From NCBI GenBank assembly GCA_002070505.1, contig MWDJ01000029.1:1-34700 (forward strand): 34,700 nt of DNA, in the 5' to 3' direction. This document shows, in pieces, positions 17,349-34,700 of the stretch (its first letter is position 1; every line of letters begins with the position of its first letter). The notes below the pieces were generated by a model, which saw only the letters and a program-made list of their open reading frames with translations, searched no databases and had not been told where the DNA came from. The translations under genes and the position numbers were made by a program. Source of the stretch: Bacteroidetes bacterium ADurb.Bin145 (GTDB lineage: Bacteria > Bacteroidota > Bacteroidia > Bacteroidales > VadinHA17).

Positions 17349-17433
17349 GCCCGGATGGTGGAATGGTAGACACGCAGGACTTAAAATCCTGTGGGCAGTA
17401 ATGCCTGTGCGGGTTCAAGTCCCGCTCCGGGTA
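17349..17433 (+). tRNA. tRNA-Leu (anticodon UAA)
   Basis: An 85-nt class II tRNA. Acceptor GCCCGGA pairs with TCCGGGT (G-U at the first pair), the anticodon loop CTTAAAA carries TAA, the long variable arm is GTGGGCAGTAATGCCTGTGC, and the T arm contains GGTTCAAGTCC. Discriminator is A; CCA is not encoded. No second copy of its 3' end was found in the window, so there is no evidence that it served as an integration site. Confidence 0.95.
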
Positions 17434-17442
17434 CCCAACGGC

Positions 17443-17537: not shown

Positions 17538-17588
17538 GGTTGCAACTTTTAAATTCTGAAAATCGGATTTTTTGTAAGAGTTGCAACC
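17538..17588. repeat. 51-bp inverted repeat with GTTGCAAC ends
   Basis: GGTTGCAACT (17538-17547) and its exact reverse complement AGTTGCAACC (17579-17588) flank 31 bp. Each arm contains the 8-bp palindrome GTTGCAAC. It lies 97 bp before the DUF2188 gene. It may be an operator for the DUF2188/HAD pair or a recombinase site; both are guesses. Confidence 0.6.
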
Positions 17589-17684: not shown

Positions 17685-17912
17685 ATGCATAAGAACGATT
17701 TTAACACCGTTATGAAAGCTGGGGGTATTTGGATTGTAACAGAAGGTTCTGGCAGATCCACCTCAAAGCATACTTCTCAAGATGAAGCATGGAAAGAAAC
17801 CAGAAGATTAGCCAGAGGAGCGGGAACAGAAGCCATCTTAAAAGGAAAAGATGGAAAGGTTCTTACTCGTAACAATTATGGTCATGTTTCCCGAATGAGT
17901 AAGGAACAATGA
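17685..17912 (+). CDS. DUF2188 family protein
   Basis: A 75-residue protein matching the DUF2188 pattern: GGIWIVTEGSGRSTSKHTSQDEA near the start, then EAILKGKDGKVLTRNNYGH. Family members are small alpha/beta proteins of unknown function, often near stress or mobile genes. It overlaps the HAD gene by an ATGA (17909-17912), so the two are probably translated together. Confidence 0.75.
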   Translation: MHKNDFNTVMKAGGIWIVTEGSGRSTSKHTSQDEAWKETRRLARGAGTEAILKGKDGKVLTRNNYGHVSRMSKEQ

Positions 17913-18778
17913 GAAAGAAACCTGTCTTTGCCCTTATCTATGATTTCGACGGAACAATCGCTCCTGGTAATATGCAGGAGAGGGATTTCATTCCAGCAAT
18001 AAAAATGAATACCAAGAAGTTTTGGAAGGAGGTCTCCAATACTTCAAAAGAACATCAGGCAGATAATATTCTTGTTTATATGAAACTGATGTTGGACAAA
18101 GCTGCAATTGCCGAAGTTCAGGTGCGTGAAGAGAATTTTCGTATTTATGGACGAAATATGAACTATTTTGAAGGTGTACTACCGTATAAGAATAACAGTG
18201 AGGAAGTGGTAAAGGGATGGTTTGACCGTATAAATGAATACGGTAAACGGAGCGGTGTACAGGTTGAACACTACATCGTTTCTTCTGGAATAAAGGAGAT
18301 GATAGATGGTACTACCATCGCGAGGAAGTTTAAAAAAGTCTATGCGTCGTCATTTTTTTATGATCATCATGGGATAGCTGTTTGGCCTTCACTAGCAATT
18401 AATTATACAACCAAGACTCAATACATCTTTAGGATCAATAAAGGCTGTTTGGATGTTAGCGAAAACAAAAAGATAAATGAATATACACCTGAAGAAGAAA
18501 GAAGTATCCCATTTAAACATATGGTTTATATTGGAGATGGTGATACTGATATTCCTTGTTTCAGGTTAGTAAGGGATAGGGGAGGCCATTCAATTGCGGT
18601 ATATAAACCCAACACAAAGGGTGCGAAATTAAGATCAGAACATCTAATCAAGAATGGCAGAGTTGATTATGTTCTTCCTGCGGATTATAAAGTTAACATG
18701 GCTCTAGATAGGACTATTAAAGCTATAATTGACAAAGTGGCACATGATGAGTATCTTAACTCTTTGAAACAGATTTAA
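17909..18778 (+). CDS. HAD family phosphatase-like hydrolase
   Basis: A 289-residue haloacid dehalogenase superfamily protein. Motif I is YDFDGTIAP (nucleophile and acid Asp), motif II is IVSSGIKEM, and motif IV is YIGDGDTDIPCF. The insert between motifs I and II (about residues 20-115) is the C1 cap; the layout resembles phosphoserine-phosphatase-like enzymes. The substrate cannot be inferred. It is coupled to DUF2188 upstream, and its last 23 bp overlap the 3' end of the convergent serine recombinase. That may mean the element inserted at or near the end of this gene. Confidence 0.82.
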   Translation: MRKKPVFALIYDFDGTIAPGNMQERDFIPAIKMNTKKFWKEVSNTSKEHQADNILVYMKLMLDKAAIAEVQVREENFRIYGRNMNYFEGVLPYKNNSEEVVKGWFDRINEYGKRSGVQVEHYIVSSGIKEMIDGTTIARKFKKVYASSFFYDHHGIAVWPSLAINYTTKTQYIFRINKGCLDVSENKKINEYTPEEERSIPFKHMVYIGDGDTDIPCFRLVRDRGGHSIAVYKPNTKGAKLRSEHLIKNGRVDYVLPADYKVNMALDRTIKAIIDKVAHDEYLNSLKQI

Positions 18779-20345
18779 ATAATAAGGGGGCATACGATAG
18801 GGGTTTACTTAAATCTTTCTCAATCTCCAATACCGACTTTACATTACCAGTTGTGCTCTTGAGTGAGTTACTTAATCTAAGGATTAGCTGCACAGGTTCC
18901 GTAAAAACAGGATCAGTTACTTTCCCTTTATCCAATACCAGTTTTTCGGCAAAGATGCAGCCGAGAATTTTCTTCTTTGTAGTTCCGTTTACCTTCCTGT
19001 AATACTCCAGGAGGTTCTCCAACATTGGAACTTCCTTCTGAAGATAAACCTTAAAGGGGGACTTTTCTTGTTGTAATTCAGTAAGTTTCTCTTTTGTCAG
19101 AACGATATCTTTATCAACTCTACTCTTCATGTCCTGGTAATCGTGTGAAGTAATAGCACGATCCATCAGGTCGTTTTGGAGGTTCGATTTACGTAGTTCA
19201 AGTTTCTCCAGTTCCTTCTTCGTCTTCTGGATCTCATCTCTCCTCTGATATTCATTCTTCTCGAATAGTTTTTCCAATGTTTTCCTATATAAGTTAACTA
19301 TTTGAGCAGAAAACGAGATGGTTGATAATATATCTTCAATACTCTCATGAACATCCTGAATCCTGTACCTGTGTTTGCACCTGTCCTTGCAACAGAGATA
19401 ATAATGATGGAGTTTCCCAGTATGACTCCGACAGGCGTATGCAGTAAGAGATTTATTATGATCAGGGCACACGAGAAAACCTTTAAGTGGGTATAAGTCG
19501 GTTTTGTCATCATGGAACTTCATGTTCCTTCTGCGTCCTGACAGAACATCATTTGCACGATGGAATACTTCTTCTGGAATGATTGCTGGGTGAAGACCAA
19601 CTACATCTTGAGATAGTTCTTTTTTCCATGGTCCAGTTCTTATCTTTCCGATATAAACAGGATTTCTTATGCACCTCAGGAAAGTATTCTTACTGATTTT
19701 TAACTTATTATCATTCAACCATTTTCTTACTTCATCCGCAGAATATGAACCTGATGCTAACATGTTGAAGGCTTCAACCATCAATGGAGCCTCAGAATTT
19801 GGACGAATTGTTGACTTTTTTCCGTCTCTGACGTTGTCATATCCTTTTGGTGCCTGAGCAGTCCAGCAACCCTCATTTCTGGCCCTCCAGGAACCTTCGG
19901 CTGTCCTTAATGATATCTTATCGTTCTCGACTTCAGGTATTGAGAGATAAAGGCTTAATAAAATCTTATTGTCAGGATTAGTAATATCGAGTGGTTGTTC
20001 AACTGTATTGACTGAAACACCTAATTTGTGGAGCTCCCTAATTACGGTTAATGAATCATACTGATTTCTTGAGAATCTATCCCAACGATTACAAAGGATA
20101 AGATCAACCCTTCCTCTGTGGCTTCTAATGTAGGTCATGATTTTCTTCCACTCAGGTCTGTCAAATGACTTGCCCGAGCAATCCTCGGTGTATATATCGA
20201 CTATATTGAAGTTATTTATCTCACAATACTTTGTCAACATAGTTTCCTGATGCTGAAGGCTAAAACCTCTGTCAGCCTGCTCGTCGGTACTGACCCTCTT
20301 GTAACAGATTACGTTCATTACAGGTAGATTTAGATTGTTTTTCAT
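18756..20345 (-). CDS. Large serine recombinase (site-specific integrase)
   Basis: Probable integrase/excisionase of the element. The N-terminal resolvase domain has YKRVSTDEQ with the nucleophilic serine, then DRPEWKKIM, LILCNRWDRFSRN and EVENDKISLRTAEG. A 'recombinase' domain follows (APKGYDN, NTFLRCIRNPVYIGKI), then a zinc-ribbon with CPDH...C...CC..RC spacing, then a long charged coiled coil (about residues 360-430). The 529-residue length fits. ATG at 20345 is preferred over the TTG at 20357; ATG at 20318 is also possible and would leave the serine about ten residues from the start, as in many relatives. Its start overlaps the small gene ending at 20272, and its end overlaps the HAD gene by 23 bp. 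Confidence 0.93.
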   Translation of the reverse strand: MKNNLNLPVMNVICYKRVSTDEQADRGFSLQHQETMLTKYCEINNFNIVDIYTEDCSGKSFDRPEWKKIMTYIRSHRGRVDLILCNRWDRFSRNQYDSLTVIRELHKLGVSVNTVEQPLDITNPDNKILLSLYLSIPEVENDKISLRTAEGSWRARNEGCWTAQAPKGYDNVRDGKKSTIRPNSEAPLMVEAFNMLASGSYSADEVRKWLNDNKLKISKNTFLRCIRNPVYIGKIRTGPWKKELSQDVVGLHPAIIPEEVFHRANDVLSGRRRNMKFHDDKTDLYPLKGFLVCPDHNKSLTAYACRSHTGKLHHYYLCCKDRCKHRYRIQDVHESIEDILSTISFSAQIVNLYRKTLEKLFEKNEYQRRDEIQKTKKELEKLELRKSNLQNDLMDRAITSHDYQDMKSRVDKDIVLTKEKLTELQQEKSPFKVYLQKEVPMLENLLEYYRKVNGTTKKKILGCIFAEKLVLDKGKVTDPVFTEPVQLILRLSNSLKSTTGNVKSVLEIEKDLSKPLSYAPLLFKSVSKS

Positions 20346-20469
20346 TATGGCTATCAAATTCTATCTGGGCTAAAGTCGTAATGAATTCCCGAATTTGCAG
20401 CATTTCTTCATGAGTAAATTTAAACTCACCTTCATTTAAAATCTTTATTGATTCTTGTTCGTTTACCAT
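20272..20469 (-). CDS. Small protein overlapping the recombinase start
   Basis: A 65-residue protein from ATG at 20469: MVNEQESIKILNEGEFKFTH, then EEMLQIREFITTLAQIEFD, then a polar tail. It is predicted to be mostly helical. Its last 74 bp overlap the beginning of the recombinase in another frame. Small proteins of this shape precede serine recombinases in other Bacteroidota elements, as far as I recall, so it may be a co-regulated accessory factor. No function can be read from the sequence. Confidence 0.5.
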   Translation of the reverse strand: MVNEQESIKILNEGEFKFTHEEMLQIREFITTLAQIEFDSHNEKQSKSTCNERNLLQEGQYRRAG

Positions 20470-22193: not shown

Positions 22194-23921
22194 TTAAGCT
22201 GCCTGAGCCAAGTCTTCATTATTATTCAATCTGATAATCCTTTCTGTATTCTTAGCCCGCCTGCAGGCCTGTTGGAAGTAGTCATTTTCTAGTTCGATCC
22301 CGACATACTTACGTCCAAGCAACAGGGCTGAATCCATTGTATTACCAACTCCACTCCAGATGTCCACGACCAGATCTTCTGGACGGGTTGATTCAAGAAT
22401 CAATACTGATGTGAGATATAGGGGACTCTGTGAGGTGTGTTTTTTCTCATCAGTCTGACGGAATACATCTTGGGGGTTACAGACATTTCCCCTGATGATA
22501 TCAGTACAACTCCTATCATCCAGAGTGTTCCTCAATTTTTTAAGGTGGGATTGATAATAAGAACTACCTCTGGTTGTATGACCCTTACCGTCGGTATTGG
22601 TACAACCTTCCTGGAACCCTTCATGTTTCCCTTTTTCGAGTTCAATAAACAGGTCAGGGTTACAGTAATAATTTTTAGGATCAAGACTGAACCTGCATAC
22701 CATCTCGAACCCATTAACCATATCTTTATCTGCGTATGACCTTGGCATGGGATTATCTTTGACCCATGCATACCGACCAACAGGAAAAAAACCCTTATTC
22801 TCCATCTCGACAACGAAGTGTTCGAGTGAACAGGCAAGAGCCCCGTTATCCATTCGGTAGTCATCGATAATGACATAGATAGATCCATCCTTAGACATGA
22901 ATGGTTTGAACTGCTCGTATGTCTCCGACAAGTACAGTCCATACTCCTTCCCAGTCATTCCATGACCAGTATCTGAATCGGGATTGTCACCGTTAAGTCG
23001 ACGGTTACCATAGGGAGGTGAACCTACAAGGCACTGGATTTCTTTTTTGAAGGGGTGTTTAAACTCGACCTCACGGTTATTCCCATGAATGAGACAAGTG
23101 TTTTCAGTAATATAAACATCATCAAGTACTGGTACTAATATCTTGTTATTCTCATGACTGGAAATTCGCTGTTCAATCTTAGCCATTTGGACCAAGCTCT
23201 TGTGAAATTCCTGTGGAGTGATTTCCCTTAACAGATATGATTTTAACAGTTCATACTCAGTTTCGTCATCGAGGCTCAGGTTACTTATTCCATATTCAAG
23301 ACGTTTATAATCAAACCTGCGGTCACATATTTTTTCAAATGATTTCTCCGAAGTGAACTTTTCAGGGTATTTCTCGACCACTTTTTTAATTTTAAAACCA
23401 TCGGAGACATACAATTCATTTCCAAAGATTCTTTCAAGTATACAATCACCCTCACCCTCAAAAAAACCATTCAGAATTACCATATCCTTGACCCAGTCTT
23501 TTGACCGACCAATTTCTTTCCCGATTTTAGAGTACCTGGAACCTGGGATTCCTCTTTGGTCAGGATACATTTCGAGATAGTGACGAAACTCCCGAAGGAG
23601 TTCACGTCCACTTTTATTTCTCTGTTTATTAAGATCTATGATCAGGGTTCTTATTTCAGATTCATCAGTTGTATCGATAAATAGGACTTCAACCTCTTTT
23701 AAACCCATTGCTATTTCTGTTTCGAGACGTTTCTTACCCGAAATCACCCGACCAAGATCAGGCTCAGGGTGTGGTACGACCGCGATTGGATATATTGGTT
23801 TATTAGCTGTTCGTTTAAATGAGACCTTCAGGGACTCGTCAGGACCAGACTCGTACACCTCATCTAGATAATGGTGTATAAGGAGTTTATCAATGTGATA
23901 TTTTTTAATTATCGTATTCAT
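22194..23921 (-). CDS. ParB-like domain fused to a DNA methyltransferase
   Basis: A 575-residue fusion. The N-terminal part (about 40-115) is ParB/Srx-like: PIYPIAVVPHPEPDLGRVISGKKR, LIIDLNKQRNKSGRELLREFR. A helix-turn-helix-like segment follows at 130-150 (YSKIGKEIGRSKDWVKDMVIL). The C-terminal part is a permuted, beta-class amino-methyltransferase with motif IV GSPPYG at 300-305 before motif I VVDIWSGVGNT at 518-527 and GRKYVGIELENDYF. SPPY suggests N4-cytosine or N6-adenine modification. Motif I departs from the usual DPFxGSGTT (W for F, V for T). No restriction gene is adjacent, so it is an orphan modification enzyme typical of phages and conjugative elements. It is first in the leftward series. 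Confidence 0.85.
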   Translation of the reverse strand: MNTIIKKYHIDKLLIHHYLDEVYESGPDESLKVSFKRTANKPIYPIAVVPHPEPDLGRVISGKKRLETEIAMGLKEVEVLFIDTTDESEIRTLIIDLNKQRNKSGRELLREFRHYLEMYPDQRGIPGSRYSKIGKEIGRSKDWVKDMVILNGFFEGEGDCILERIFGNELYVSDGFKIKKVVEKYPEKFTSEKSFEKICDRRFDYKRLEYGISNLSLDDETEYELLKSYLLREITPQEFHKSLVQMAKIEQRISSHENNKILVPVLDDVYITENTCLIHGNNREVEFKHPFKKEIQCLVGSPPYGNRRLNGDNPDSDTGHGMTGKEYGLYLSETYEQFKPFMSKDGSIYVIIDDYRMDNGALACSLEHFVVEMENKGFFPVGRYAWVKDNPMPRSYADKDMVNGFEMVCRFSLDPKNYYCNPDLFIELEKGKHEGFQEGCTNTDGKGHTTRGSSYYQSHLKKLRNTLDDRSCTDIIRGNVCNPQDVFRQTDEKKHTSQSPLYLTSVLILESTRPEDLVVDIWSGVGNTMDSALLLGRKYVGIELENDYFQQACRRAKNTERIIRLNNNEDLAQAA

Positions 23922-25574: not shown

Positions 25575-26438
25575 ATGAAAGAGCAGAGAAGATATGTGAG
25601 TTACGACACAAGATTTCGTCAGTCAGGATTAGATGTTTTGAATATGATCCTGTTGACCGAGATTGAGAACCTTTGTAAGTTGCCAGGAGGATGTTATGCC
25701 AGTGATAAACAATTGGGTGAACTTATCATGATCGGGAGGAAAAATACAAATGAGAGAGTTAAATACCTTGAAAGTCTCAAACTCATAGAATGTCATACAA
25801 GGTTTGAAAAAGGTAAACGTTTGCGGTTTATTAAATTCTTAACTGACAAAGTTGAATTACCCCTGGGTAACACAAATCAGAGCATTAGAAAAAGGAAAGG
25901 TAAATCACCACAGGGTAACTTATCTCAATCACCCCTGGGTAACTCAGGTAGTTCACCACAGGGTAACAATAATAAGTTAATTAAAGAAGTAAAAAAGAAA
26001 GAGTCAACAGAGCTCACTGATACTGGATCCATATATAGTGGACCAATATATACTGGAAATACTGGACCAAATGGGAAGGAATTTGTTGATATTTCCTCCA
26101 ATTCAGAAATTGTTGAAGGTTTCAATGATTCTTATTCCAAATATAATGATATTCAATCCAGTACTGGATTTGATAATACTTCAACTAATATTTCTTCTGG
26201 TACTAATTCAATAAATAGATTACTATCAAATGATCAAGACAGGAATGCATCCTCAACCAGGCTTAAAGAATTCAAGAATTTCTCTATCTCAAAAATTTAC
26301 GATCAGTTAGATCCTGGCCAGCAGATGTTGTTGATGAGCTTGCCAATGGTAGAAAGGCTTCAACGATTAGCAGAATTCCAAAAGAAGAAAAGCAAGGACC
26401 AAGATCAGCCAATAAACAGTAACAAAAATAAAATTTAA
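25575..26438 (+). CDS. Winged-helix replication initiator-like protein
   Basis: A 287-residue protein whose first 90 residues look like the winged-helix domain of phage and plasmid replication initiators (HTH_36/replisome-organiser type). The markers are YDTRFRQSGLDVLNMILLTEI, then CYASDKQLGELIMIGRKNTNERVKYLESLKLIE and a wing. Residues 95-134 are an 8-residue repeat SP(L/Q)GNxxx, encoded by iteron-like DNA. The remainder is Ser/Asn/Thr-rich linker, then a C-terminal helical piece (QQMLLMSLPMVERLQRLAEFQ) that could contact a helicase or loader. Lambda O-like proteins share this plan (N-terminal origin binding, C-terminal partner binding, origin inside the gene). The initiator role is inferred. 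It starts 16 nt after a pseudoknot-capable leader. Confidence 0.65.
   Translation: MKEQRRYVSYDTRFRQSGLDVLNMILLTEIENLCKLPGGCYASDKQLGELIMIGRKNTNERVKYLESLKLIECHTRFEKGKRLRFIKFLTDKVELPLGNTNQSIRKRKGKSPQGNLSQSPLGNSGSSPQGNNNKLIKEVKKKESTELTDTGSIYSGPIYTGNTGPNGKEFVDISSNSEIVEGFNDSYSKYNDIQSSTGFDNTSTNISSGTNSINRLLSNDQDRNASSTRLKEFKNFSISKIYDQLDPGQQMLLMSLPMVERLQRLAEFQKKKSKDQDQPINSNKNKI
25860..26016 (+). other. Candidate replication origin: four iterons plus AT-rich tract
   Basis: 12-bp repeats CCCCTGGGTAAC (25860-25871, 25932-25943) and CCACAGGGTAAC (25908-25919, 25956-25967) start exactly 48, 24 and 24 bp apart. They are followed at once by a tract low in G+C (25968-26010). Gly-Asn is encoded GGT-AAC in all four copies. 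Iterons next to an AT-rich unwinding region inside the initiator gene is the lambda-type origin layout. Origin activity is not shown by sequence alone. Confidence 0.55.
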
Positions 26439-26440
26439 CT

Positions 26441-26824
26441 ATGGGAAAATTAGAAAGAATTAATTCAGTATCAGGGAAGGGAATGACCTTATCTCAACAT
26501 TATTACTATTCACTGGAACAGCTATTTAGTGGTATCAATACGCATATAGGTATTTTAAAAATGAATATAGATTGGAATTGTCAAGATAAGATTAAGCAAG
26601 GATCCAAAAGAACTATTGATTCTATTCCAGGAAATGAAAGGTATTGTTGTTGGGGCTTAATCTATCCAGACGAAATGAAAGAATTACTGTTGGGACTGTC
26701 TCCGCAAGAGCGTTTGGATATTTTGACGTTAATTATTGAAAATAAACGGGATTTCAGGAATATTCATGATGTGATTGATTTTATGATATTTGTCCTAAAC
26801 TGGGATGGAGAGGAACTTAACTGA
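26441..26824 (+). CDS. Hypothetical protein downstream of the initiator
   Basis: Unrecognised 127-residue protein starting 2 bp after the initiator stop, so almost certainly in the same operon. It is mostly helical (LSQHYYYSLEQLFSGINTHIG, LSPQERLDILTLIIENK) with a Cys-Cys-Trp (YCCWGL) in the middle. A helper role in replication, such as helicase loading, is plausible from position only. Confidence 0.6.
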   Translation: MGKLERINSVSGKGMTLSQHYYYSLEQLFSGINTHIGILKMNIDWNCQDKIKQGSKRTIDSIPGNERYCCWGLIYPDEMKELLLGLSPQERLDILTLIIENKRDFRNIHDVIDFMIFVLNWDGEELN

Positions 26825-28051: not shown

Positions 28052-28370
28052 GGGGGCCAATGTAAGCTTATTTAGAATATGCTGTTATCCAGAGACATAG
28101 ATCTTTTTATCCCTGGTCTCCAGTGTAGAAATCATACGGCAGAGGATAGTATGGAACTTAAAATGTGAACGTGCCGATTGAGTTATCCCAGGCAGACTCC
28201 AGATCGCAAAAAGATCTCAGAGAAATTCTTATCGTTTAGAAATCTAATACTGTGATACTAAAAATCAAAATAAAAAGTAAAGCACTCCTTTATTAAAAAT
28301 AATACTCTGGATATTAGGCAGATTGGTGCAAATGTATTACTTTTATAATAAGTATAAATGTAGCACAAAA

Positions 28371-28982
28371 ATGAGAATAAAATACAATCGTGTTTCGACC
28401 TTGTATCAGTCTGGAAATCGGTTCTCTGCTGACACAAATGTTTATGACCTTACTTTGTTCGATAAAATCAGTGGATCTATTCCATTTCGAGAAAGACCCA
28501 AGGGGAAGGAACTTGTTAACCTGGTTGAAGAGGGGAAAGTAGAGGAACTTCACATCGAGGAGCTGAGTAGACTAGGCCGTAACGTTGGCGATTGTATAAC
28601 TGTTTGTGAATGGTTGGATTCAAAAGGTGTGAATATCGTTGTAAAGAATCTTGGACTACAATCACGCCCAGATGGCAAGAAAAATCCTGTTTGGAAGGTT
28701 GTTTGTGCGACGATGAGCTCTCTTTACTCAATGGAACTTGAGAATATCCGTGAAAGAACGACTACTGGCAGATTGGTATATCTGCAAGGTGGAGGAATCT
28801 TGGGCCGACCTAAGGGTTCGAATGAGACCGAGATGGAATTTCTGAAAAAGAAAATGAGCACTAGTGTTATTAAGTCATTACAAAAAGGATTAACCATCAG
28901 AGAAACCAGTAAGGTTGTTGGTGTTTCAACACGGTCAGTAATGAAAGTGAAGAAACTGGGTACAAAACATGGTATTTTATAA
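28371..28982 (+). CDS. Small serine recombinase (resolvase/invertase family)
   Basis: A 203-residue resolvase-type recombinase. IKYNRVSTLYQ gives the nucleophilic serine, ELHIEELSRLGRN and the long E helix (SMELENIRERTTTG) are in the right places, and a C-terminal HTH follows (LTIRETSKVVGVSTRSVMKVKK). The ATG at 28371 places the serine about nine residues in, as expected. It could resolve multimers of the element or invert DNA; no res site was recognised in the 319 bp upstream (28052-28370). That stretch otherwise shows only A/T-rich sequence and nothing coding. Confidence 0.88.
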   Translation: MRIKYNRVSTLYQSGNRFSADTNVYDLTLFDKISGSIPFRERPKGKELVNLVEEGKVEELHIEELSRLGRNVGDCITVCEWLDSKGVNIVVKNLGLQSRPDGKKNPVWKVVCATMSSLYSMELENIRERTTTGRLVYLQGGGILGRPKGSNETEMEFLKKKMSTSVIKSLQKGLTIRETSKVVGVSTRSVMKVKKLGTKHGIL

Positions 28983-30001: not shown

Positions 30002-32851
30002 ATGGTAGATAAACTTACTGCACATAAAAATATCTCAAACCTCGTCACACGTTTTGAAAATCAATACGATTCTTATAGTAACGTTAATTACAACGAGACT
30101 CAGACCCGAAAAGATTTTATCGATCCTTTCTTCAAAGCTTTAGGATGGGATATTGACAACGAAGCGGGTTACGCCGAAGCTTACAGAGAAGTTATCCAAG
30201 AAGACAAGGTTAAAATAAGTGGAGCAACCAAAGCCCCTGATTATTCCTTCAGATTAGTCGGTGGCAAACGACTCTTTTTTGTTGAAGCTAAGAAACCAAG
30301 TATTTCAGTTAAAGATGATATCCATCCAGCTTATCAGGTTCGTAGATATGGATGTAGTGCCAAACATCCAATCAGCATAGTAACTGACTTTGAAGAGTTT
30401 GGTGTATATGATTGTACAAAAAAGCCAGATCCAAATGACAAACCTGCAGTAGCAAGGGTAAAATATCTTACTTACCGTGACTATCTTAAAGAATTTGATT
30501 TTATATGGGAAACCTTTAGTAAGGAACAAGTATTAAAAGGGAGTTTCGACAAGTTTATTCAAAGCGATACTAATAAAAAGGGGACGACAACAGTCGATAA
30601 GGAATTCTTGGAATCTCTTGACCGTTGGAGGACATATCTTGCTGTGAACATAAGCTGGAACAATAAGAACCTTGACGAGGATGAGATCAATTTTGCAGTT
30701 CAGCAAACAATTGACCGAATTATTTTTCTTAGAATAGCTGAAGATAGAAGTGTAGAACCTTATGGGAATCTCAAACAGGCTCTTTCCCATAGGGATTTTT
30801 ATTTAAACCTCTTTGACCAGTTTCGAAGAGCAGATGAGAAATATAATTCAGGATTATTTGATTTTAAAAAGGATAAGATCAGTGAAAACCTGGTTATTGA
30901 GAATAAAGTAATTAAAACTCTTCTCAATGAGCTTTATTATCCTGAATGTCCTTATGAATTCTCAGTTCTGCCTGTGGAAATCCTTGGTAGTGCTTATGAA
31001 CAATTCCTTGGGAAAATAATTCGTATAACTCCAGCTCATCATGCAAAGATTGAAGAGAAGCCTGAAGTGAGAAAAGCAGGTGGGGTATATTACACACCTC
31101 AATACATTGTAGATTATATTGTTAAAAATACAGTTGGAAAGCTTATTGAGGGTAAAACTCCAAAAGAGATTTCCAAAATTAAAATTGTTGATCCTGCATG
31201 TGGCAGTGGCAGCTTTTTAATTGGAGCTTATCAATTTTTATTAGATTGGCATAAAAACTATTACTCAAACTATGGTAGAACCTCTAAAGGTAAGAAGGAT
31301 AATCCTCTCACACCCGAAGGCCAGTTGACGACAGCGGAAAAGAAAAGAATCCTTCTCAACAACATTTACGGAGTGGATATAGATATCAATGCTGTCGAAG
31401 TAACAAAGCTAAGTCTACTAATAAAATGTTTGGAAGGAGAGACAGAAGCATCAATACAACAACAGTTTAGACTTTGGAATGAAAGAGTTCTTCCTACTTT
31501 AGAGAATAATATCAAAAGTGGCAATAGCTTGATAGACATCGACTTTTATGATGATCAATTAGATTTCGGTGAAGAGAAGAAAATTAAACCTTTCAGCTGG
31601 CAAAAAGGATTTCAAGATGTTTTCAGACAAGGGGGATTTGATGTTTTAATAGGAAATCCTCCATATGGCGCACTGTTTGATGAGGTTCAAAAACAATATT
31701 TTGTTTCTCATTATAAAACAGTTGAAGGTAGATATGACAACTTTGAACTTTTTATAGAAAAAGGTACTAACCTATTAAGTAAGCATGGTCTCCTTGGCTA
31801 CATTGTACCGAGTCCATTTCTCACAAACTTATATTCTCGTAAGCTGAGGAGTTATATAATTACCTCATGTAGGCTAAAGGAGATAGTATGTTTTACAATG
31901 CCAGTTTTTTATGATCCTACTGTTCATACTTGTATCATTTTATTAAGTTCTACTTACAAAAAAGGGAACAGCATCATTATTAAAAATAATATTGATTCAA
32001 TCGAAAAATTGATTTCAGAGGATGCCATTCTTTTAGATCAAGACGAGATAAAAACAAATCCAAATTTTGTAATAGATGTTTTTATTAACAAATCAGCTAA
32101 GGATTTGATCAATAAATTAAAATCGAAAAGTAAACCTTTGGGTGAACTTTGTTTTATTAGGCAGTGTATTAAAACGGGGGATGATGAAAAATTTGTTTTA
32201 AACTCGAAAACAGCCCTAGCTGAACCATGGAAGCTTAGCTTGAGGGGGAAATCAATAAGTAGATATTCTACGAAAGAAAGAGACCTCTATTTAAAATATG
32301 GAGATTGGCTTGCAAGAAATTGGAAGAATAAATCATTTTATGAAACTCATAAAATAGCAATTAGAGAAACTGGTAAAAGGATTACGGCAACAATTGATTT
32401 GGAGAACCGTTATTTCTTAAGTTCAATCTATGCTATTTACTACAAACAGATTGAGTTAAATAATGAGGGTGATTTAAAATTTCTTTTGGGAATTATAAAC
32501 TCTGATTTAGCAAATTACTTTATGAAGATAATTGCCTTGAACTTGACAGAGGGAGCTTTTACGAAAGTTAGAACAAACCAACTAGCTCGCCTTCCAATAG
32601 TAATCTTGAATGAAGAGAAAGACATATCTTTAAAAAATGAAATTGGGAAACTCGTCGATATTTTATTAAAATTAAACGAAGAATTGTTAAATGTTAATTT
32701 AGAGAGCCAAAAGCAACTACTGCTTAATAAAAGTGATTATTGTGAAAAGAAAATCAATGATATTGTTTATCAATTATATGGATTAACCTCTGAGGAAATT
32801 AAAATAGTTGAACATAGTACGGAGTTCACTGGCACAAAGAAAAATACTTGA
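30002..32851 (+). CDS. Type IIG restriction-modification enzyme (Eco57I-like)
   Basis: Single-chain restriction endonuclease and N6-adenine methyltransferase, 949 residues. The N-terminal nuclease domain has PDYSFRLVGGKRLFFVEAKKPSI, a PD-(D/E)xK site with Asp80, Glu95 and Lys97. A helical connector follows, with GGVYYTPQYIVDYIV leading to the methyltransferase: motif I VDPACGSGSFLIG (about 396) and motif IV IGNPPYG (about 550). The C-terminal third (from about 700) is the target-recognition region with ISRYSTKERDLYLKYGDWLA and ANYFMKIIALNLTEGAFTKVRTNQLARLPI. Such enzymes cut a fixed distance from an asymmetric site methylated on one strand. All catalytic motifs are intact. It is followed 17 bp later by a HEPN-type gene, suggesting a defence cassette. 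Confidence 0.92.
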   Translation: MVDKLTAHKNISNLVTRFENQYDSYSNVNYNETQTRKDFIDPFFKALGWDIDNEAGYAEAYREVIQEDKVKISGATKAPDYSFRLVGGKRLFFVEAKKPSISVKDDIHPAYQVRRYGCSAKHPISIVTDFEEFGVYDCTKKPDPNDKPAVARVKYLTYRDYLKEFDFIWETFSKEQVLKGSFDKFIQSDTNKKGTTTVDKEFLESLDRWRTYLAVNISWNNKNLDEDEINFAVQQTIDRIIFLRIAEDRSVEPYGNLKQALSHRDFYLNLFDQFRRADEKYNSGLFDFKKDKISENLVIENKVIKTLLNELYYPECPYEFSVLPVEILGSAYEQFLGKIIRITPAHHAKIEEKPEVRKAGGVYYTPQYIVDYIVKNTVGKLIEGKTPKEISKIKIVDPACGSGSFLIGAYQFLLDWHKNYYSNYGRTSKGKKDNPLTPEGQLTTAEKKRILLNNIYGVDIDINAVEVTKLSLLIKCLEGETEASIQQQFRLWNERVLPTLENNIKSGNSLIDIDFYDDQLDFGEEKKIKPFSWQKGFQDVFRQGGFDVLIGNPPYGALFDEVQKQYFVSHYKTVEGRYDNFELFIEKGTNLLSKHGLLGYIVPSPFLTNLYSRKLRSYIITSCRLKEIVCFTMPVFYDPTVHTCIILLSSTYKKGNSIIIKNNIDSIEKLISEDAILLDQDEIKTNPNFVIDVFINKSAKDLINKLKSKSKPLGELCFIRQCIKTGDDEKFVLNSKTALAEPWKLSLRGKSISRYSTKERDLYLKYGDWLARNWKNKSFYETHKIAIRETGKRITATIDLENRYFLSSIYAIYYKQIELNNEGDLKFLLGIINSDLANYFMKIIALNLTEGAFTKVRTNQLARLPIVILNEEKDISLKNEIGKLVDILLKLNEELLNVNLESQKQLLLNKSDYCEKKINDIVYQLYGLTSEEIKIVEHSTEFTGTKKNT

Positions 32852-34489: not shown

Positions 34490-34629
34490 TCCGGACCAAA
34501 TTGAGCCACCCATTCCGGAGTAAACTGAGCCAGTAATTCCGGAGTAAAGTGAGCCACTTATTCCGGAGCAAACTGAGCCACTTCATTTAAAGCTTATCCG
34601 GACTGACATTCCGGCACAAACTGAGTGAG
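34490..34629. repeat. 24-bp-period array, probable IS21-family terminal repeats
   Basis: TCCGG(A/C)...AAA(C/T/G)TGAG-type units start at 34490, 34514, 34538, 34562 and 34610, all on a 24-bp grid (the slot at 34586 is degenerate). A further TCCGGACTGA is at 34597, off the grid. The consensus is close to TTCCGGAGTAAACTGAGCCA. IS21-family elements carry multiple repeats like this at their ends for transposase binding, and I recall similar sequence in Bacteroidota. No transposase gene is inside the window, so the element would extend to the right. Confidence 0.6.
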
Positions 34630-34700
34630 ATGGTCTAGAAGGACTGGACAATTTATTTATCAAATATAAGTGTTTATGTTGAAATGAGGGGGTTTGGGGG

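Follow-up and report, generated by a model that had tools for sequence, protein, structure and literature searches.

The locus raises the question of whether a gene that appears to encode a replication initiator also holds the origin on which that initiator acts. The window, by which we mean the whole 34,700-nucleotide stretch of contig MWDJ01000029.1 from Bacteroidetes bacterium ADurb.Bin145, contains a 287-aa ORF in which the first-pass annotation, made from the sequence alone, had seen four 12-bp repeats of two alternating kinds (CCCCTGGGTAAC and CCACAGGGTAAC) set on a 24-bp grid and followed directly by an A/T-rich stretch. It had compared this arrangement with initiators of the lambda O type, which carry their origin within the gene. 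The repeat starts are confirmed at 25860, 25908, 25932 and 25956, and the grid is borne out, with spacings of 48, 24 and 24 bp and one slot (25884) left empty. The features of the gene are as follows.

25575..26438, plus strand: initiator gene, 287 aa, matching PHROG 2880, 678, 270 and 345 (replication initiation) at E values from 2e-6 to 9e-3
25608..25838, plus strand: predicted winged-helix DNA-binding domain, residues 12-88, AlphaFold2 mean pLDDT 79
25856..25871, plus strand: iteron 1, ATTACC-N4-GGTAAC, an imperfect 16-bp dyad (from repeat and dyad analysis of the sequence, as are iterons 2 to 4)
25904..25919, plus strand: iteron 2, ATCACC-N4-GGTAAC
25928..25943, plus strand: iteron 3, ATCACC-N4-GGTAAC
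25952..25967, plus strand: iteron 4, TTCACC-N4-GGTAAC
25968..26003, plus strand: A-rich tract (23 A, 7 T, 6 G, 0 C), by base composition a candidate unwinding element
26020..26071, plus strand: second repeat set, (A)TACTGGA / ATAGTGGA, in 15-bp and 9-bp steps, from repeat analysis
26157..26168, no strand: perfect 12-bp palindrome TCCAGTACTGGA, which contains the last TACTGGA copy, from the sequence

The array occupies nt +286 to +393 of the 864-nt gene, with several iterons near the gene middle. A repeat search extended the family of the four 12-bp copies to 22 nt at the same 48/24/24 spacing, and no further position in the ORF lies within 3 mismatches of either kind. Outside the array, GGGTAAC occurs at two plus-strand sites of the window (1943 and 8623) and nowhere on its minus strand; the spaced pair GGGTAACN{14,19}GGGTAAC is unique to the array in the whole 3.95-Mb assembly. 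Since the 12-bp spacers between the iterons have merely 3-6 of 12 bases in common, the identical repeat cores do not reflect a recent tandem duplication. Read as dyads, all four iterons fit best at N4, with 1, 2, 2 and 2 mismatches in the left arm, and they form 6, 6, 5 and 4 of 8 pairs against an ORF mean of 2.06, the spacing having been chosen as the best of several. The A/T-rich stretch directly after the repeats is confirmed as a 36-bp tract with 83% A+T. The 40-bp interval from 25965 stands at the 97.9th percentile of instability within the 34.7 kb; a less stable spot exists in the same ORF, near 26186, and the tract could stem from the coding of a Lys/Glu-rich linker.

The assignment of the ORF as an initiator comes from family profiles and from predicted structure. 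Both phrog_2880 (E 2e-6; 1.2e-6 in a whole-genome search) and phrog_678 (E 1.3e-3) match the protein, a weak profile match to the O-like or winged-helix phage initiators of the PHROG 2880 group. With no Pfam match at E <= 0.01, it was not assigned to Phage_rep_O (PF04492), a model for which its own genome gave no match at E <= 0.001, and NCBIfam gave none for the protein at E <= 0.1. From an 18-row alignment, AlphaFold2 predicts helices at residues 12-15, 21-33, 44-51 and 55-67 and strands at 71-78 and 81-88. Among the BFVD matches of this model are a replication initiator (E 5e-5) and, at E 1e-4, the O replication protein of phage Min27; a PDB fold search gave no match at E 0.001, with DnaD and RepA_N domains appearing among general winged helices. 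A leave-one-out HMM of viral initiators scored the protein at E 0.01, yet it was the best of 20 window ORFs.

Relatives of the protein are distant. Viral contigs held no close homologue, and the single match among 98 relatives was the protein itself; protein searches returned three weak matches to Lacticaseibacillus phages at 30-31% and one to a plasmid. When 393 genomes of the order were searched with the N-terminal domain, 80 had a match at E <= 0.1, the best besides the window at E 0.00175. PHROG 2880, a family found in 5 of the 393 genomes, the window included, identifies one of the 80 (G428) as an initiator (E 4.8e-15). An initiator-like ORF of the same order (L310:1360-2277; PHROG 2880 E 5e-4) has a QPNDQPNSQPN repeat linker and perhaps represents another in-gene origin with iterons of its own; the ORF after it has, by eye, the look of a DnaC-type ATPase.

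The layout is close to that of known O genes. As described in the available parts of PMC7466680 and PMC6022878, ori-lambda has inverted-repeat iterons in the middle of the O gene and an A/T-rich tract directly after them. In phage 434, the annotated origin places four gpO sites of 18 bp between nt +349 and +433 of the 900-nt O gene, with starts 20, 24 and 23 bp apart, as against 48, 24 and 24 bp in the window. The window shares with lambda and 434 a DNA-binding initiator, four mid-gene iterons (in 20-24-bp steps in lambda/434) and an A/T-rich tract next to them, whereas it differs in the iteron sequence, in its imperfect 16-bp rather than 18-bp dyads and in having one grid position unoccupied; a P-like loader was not found, and the protein lacks a Phage_rep_O match. 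Gene 18 of P22 also has repeats within the gene, four of about 20 bp according to the available part of PMC8022706, in which the DnaB-type helicase gene 12 adjoins gene 18. A GGTAA core is common to P22 and the window: gene 18 contains TCGGTAA four times and a single exact TTTACC-N5-GGTAAA pair, but it lacks an exact GGTAAC/GTTACC, and gp18 clearly belongs to Phage_rep_O (E 7e-38). In all, six named O genes were compared (P22, a Klebsiella phage, 434, Tbat2_3, PHB10 and Erwinia phage 49). Dyads were seen as TTACCT-N5-AGGTAA in the Klebsiella phage, TCCCTC-N5-GAGGGA in 434, ATCCCC-N6-GGGGAT in Tbat2_3 and, twice, CGGGAA-N5-TTCCCG in PHB10, and the O gene of Erwinia phage 49 has no clear repeated dyad.

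The lambda-O-like reading, with iterons and an A/T-rich tract inside the initiator gene, holds by sequence, and it rests on the predicted initiator-type winged helix, the O-gene-like layout and the conservation of the motif at the DNA level in other initiators, described below. We consider it highly likely that this is a theta-type initiator gene of an integrative element, whose linker-coding region doubles as the origin in the manner of lambda O and P22 gp18.

One alternative is a plasmid initiator of the RepA_N/DnaD type, which would account for four in-gene boxes and would use a different hand-off to helicase or primase. The model for it is pSK41 Rep, which, in the available part of PMC5703833, binds four boxes centrally in rep and has N- and C-terminal domains that are DnaD-like in structure. 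The window protein does show weak fold and profile matches to the DnaD N-domain and to RepA_N (2v79, 4pql, 5kbj; E ~0.01), but it has no match to the RepA_N Pfam model (PF06970) and the fold likeness is weak. The families it matches best are PHROGs of phage initiators, and ordinary winged-helix transcription regulators outscore DnaD and RepA_N in the PDB, all of which makes a pSK41-like initiator rather unlikely beside a lambda-O-like one.

The lambda-O-like reading places the gene in an integrative element, of which the window contains these further features.

17538..17588, no strand: inverted repeat GGTTGCAACT...AGTTGCAACC, a candidate attachment site beside tRNA-Leu(taa) (17349-17435)
18756..20357, minus strand: large serine recombinase, with Resolvase and Recombinase Pfam matches and phrog_95 (integrase) at E 3e-80
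22194-23921, minus strand: 575-aa DNA methylase by family matches, its N-terminal part weakly ParB-like
26441..26824, plus strand: 127-aa ORF directly downstream of the initiator gene, no family match
28323-28982, plus strand: small serine recombinase of the invertase/resolvase type inside the element, by family matches
30002-32851, plus strand: Eco57I/TaqI-like combined restriction-methylation enzyme, by Pfam scan

The inverted repeat recurs in two contigs of the same genus (L347 and L348), in which the end of a serine recombinase 75-80% identical to that of the window coincides with the repeat or is no more than about 200 bp away. Because these contigs pair the repeat with the recombinase end, the left end of the element probably lies at 17538-17588; in the window, a HAD-like gene (17909-18778) stands between the repeat and the recombinase. 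The right end is unseen because the contig ends at 34700. Related serine recombinases at E <= 1e-30 occur in 10 of 97 other genomes, and in 8 contigs or contig parts with related recombinases no initiator was found by HMM at E <= 1. Used as anchors in viral contigs, the neighbour genes gave no matches, and the 575-aa methylase has no relative there. The element also encodes RusA, and a 24-bp tandem repeat of 3.9 copies lies at 34490-34583, near the contig end. Among the 18 element ORFs scanned with Pfam, on a contig that stops at 34700, no helicase or loader was recognised; the 127-aa ORF is, as a guess, a possible partner or loader.

Iteron arrays in plasmids also serve control. The array of the window might similarly be an operator or a copy-control (incompatibility) site, or the remnant of an origin that has stopped firing, as would fit a contig cut off at 34700 and an element whose mobility is only putative. 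Against this stand the position of the array, 285 bp inside the gene and adjoining an A-rich tract, and a codon constraint that is intact, and we judge a control site or relic to be quite improbable.

A candidate origin within the initiator gene leads to the question of whether selection acts on the DNA of the repeats or on the peptide. The repeats encode SP(L/Q)GN units, and the first-pass annotation had taken the shared Gly-Asn codons as a sign of selection on the DNA. The codons are indeed GGT-AAC in 4/4 copies, but the argument is weaker than claimed, as such agreement arises by chance with P ~0.8%, and taken alone the codon choice suggests DNA-level selection as modest evidence. We resampled synonymous codons in 20,000 draws with the peptide fixed and the codons taken from element usage. 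None of the 20,000 resamplings reached the identity seen among the four 15-mers, and 0.1% of them gave at least four GGTAAC, for a motif that in both cases was chosen after it had been seen. Cumulative GC skew, which had been proposed as a check on the origin, tracks gene strand and is uninformative.

Because no close homologues were found, we searched for comparison loci by DNA. Of the 39 stretches returned by a first motif scan, most appeared on inspection to be collagen-like QGN repeats, and one was a real initiator, L070, which is lambdoid-O-like (434 O by tblastn, E 2e-4) and carries three CAGGGTAAC at 24-27-bp steps. Scanning IMG/VR for three GGGTAAC at 21-26-bp steps gave 117 stretches, from which 116 loci were analysed; in 94 of these an ORF of at least 100 aa covers the motif. 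By an HMM of the initiator N-terminus, seeded with nine of the 116 loci, L070 and the window, the ORF over the triple GGGTAAC is initiator-like in 42 of the 116 loci (17 clusters). This compares with 2 of 48 for a reversed-motif control (Fisher 6e-6, on loci that are non-independent), a contrast that is partly inflated because the HMM leans towards proteins related to those it was seeded with. All ten viral seeds (nine of the 42 and L070) match replication-initiation or DnaD-like-loader families among the PHROGs, and the HMM is the basis for the remaining 33 of the 42. One group of initiators (L075, L079, L083, L099, L101, L127 and others) carries GGGTAAC in steps of 25/26 bp, translated as VT and GN; within it, L079 matches HTH_36. 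In contigs of bacterial genomes, the triple motif yielded 0 initiators by HMM in 116 among the matches listed, many of which are low-complexity repeats. Titles and the opening lines of abstracts retrieved for GGGTAAC and iteron held nothing on this subject.

Grouped at 60% identity with the window and L070 included, the initiators form 19 clusters. Counted over whole ORFs of these clusters, GGTAAC/GTTACC falls in codon phase 0 in 74 cases, in phase 2 in 37 and in phase 1 in 4, encoding GN, VT, LP or YP, and in L148 and L157 all of these occur within one linker. Since the hexamers appear in all three codon phases with differing peptides, the DNA is what is kept. Exact inward pairs GTTACC-Nd-GGTAAC number 18 at d=6 and 5 at d=5, with none at any other d below 24. 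Such exact N5/N6 dyads (17-18 bp), which have the geometry of the lambda iterons, are present in 10 of the 19 clusters and absent from 9, the window among them; at N4, the spacing of the window's imperfect dyads, exact pairs are lacking in every cluster. In 11 of the 19 clusters, again including the window, the A+T content of the 45 bp that follow the array reaches at least the 90th percentile for its ORF; in 2 it is lower than the ORF median. The uncultured-phage initiators (L070, L087, L082, L123, L148 and others) are like the window in having the same half-site in linker repeats, usually with an A-rich stretch after it, and differ from it where they carry exact dyads. Eight of them with GGTAAC/GTTACC repeats were compared with Pfam, giving five Phage_rep_O, two HTH_36 above the cut-off and one DnaB_2. 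The motif is not family-wide: a protein search with one GTTACC initiator yielded 20 relatives, of which a single one has at least 3 hexamers (for four of the 20 the frame used was short and wrong, and the contig end truncates another).

Protein-level selection on a flexible SP(L/Q)GN linker, with the DNA similarity incidental, would fit a period of 24 that is a multiple of 3, window copies that all share one frame and the P of ~0.008 for the identity of the GN codons alone, but in other initiators the motif occurs in all three codon phases and encodes different peptides, and 0 of 20,000 synonymous resamplings reach the observed repeat identity, so that it is very improbable and, as the sole cause, is rejected on the codon-phase evidence from viral initiators.

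The candidate in-gene origin has a second component to consider. Further TACTGGA repeats had been reported downstream of the array, and they were found at 26021, 26051, 26060 and 26162, inside the gene and, as seen from the iterons, beyond the A-rich tract. This set is also codon-constrained, with at least four TACTGGA in 0 of 20,000 synonymous resamplings at fixed peptide, for a motif picked after inspection. A scan for this motif, which also served as a control for the GGGTAAC scan, gave 0 initiator-like ORFs in 120 loci among the matches listed, and TACTGGA as a general initiator iteron is accordingly unsupported. The available part of PMC6092414 describes a PICI origin immediately 3' of the initiation gene, in which two iteron sets flank an A/T-rich region. 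The iterons, A-rich tract and TACTGGA set of the window resemble that arrangement, but the window's two sets differ in sequence and sit inside the gene. A wider interpretation, which we hold only tentatively and regard as doubtful, joins two ideas. The GTTACC/GGTAAC half-sites may be one iteron class across initiator families (Phage_rep_O, HTH_36, DnaD-like and that of the window), in phages and integrative elements alike, with the DNA kept in whichever frame the linker offers. The origin here may also be bipartite, with a codon-constrained second array (TACTGGA and the TCCAGTACTGGA palindrome) that would be read by the C-terminal part of the initiator, the 127-aa protein or a host factor.

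From four features of the sequence (its repeats, their constraint at the codon level, the predicted winged helix and the overall layout) we infer how a lambda-O-like origin at this locus would work. The winged helix would bind the GGTAAC-containing imperfect inverted repeats of the four iterons on the 24-bp grid, probably as dimers, and the resulting nucleoprotein complex would melt the adjacent 36-bp A-rich tract. The host replicative helicase would then be brought in by the C-terminal part of the initiator or by the product of the next gene, and replication would follow excision by the serine recombinase.

This mobile element, with a candidate origin inside its initiator gene, seems to be a further example of the phage lambda design and not a new kind of system. 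It provides a concrete origin candidate for an integrative element without a close relative in the collections searched. The search also offers a cheap route to finding origins, in which spaced half-sites are scanned for and then checked for whether they fall in initiator linkers in any reading frame. If the shared half-site is true, the specificity of initiators for their iterons could be traced across families.
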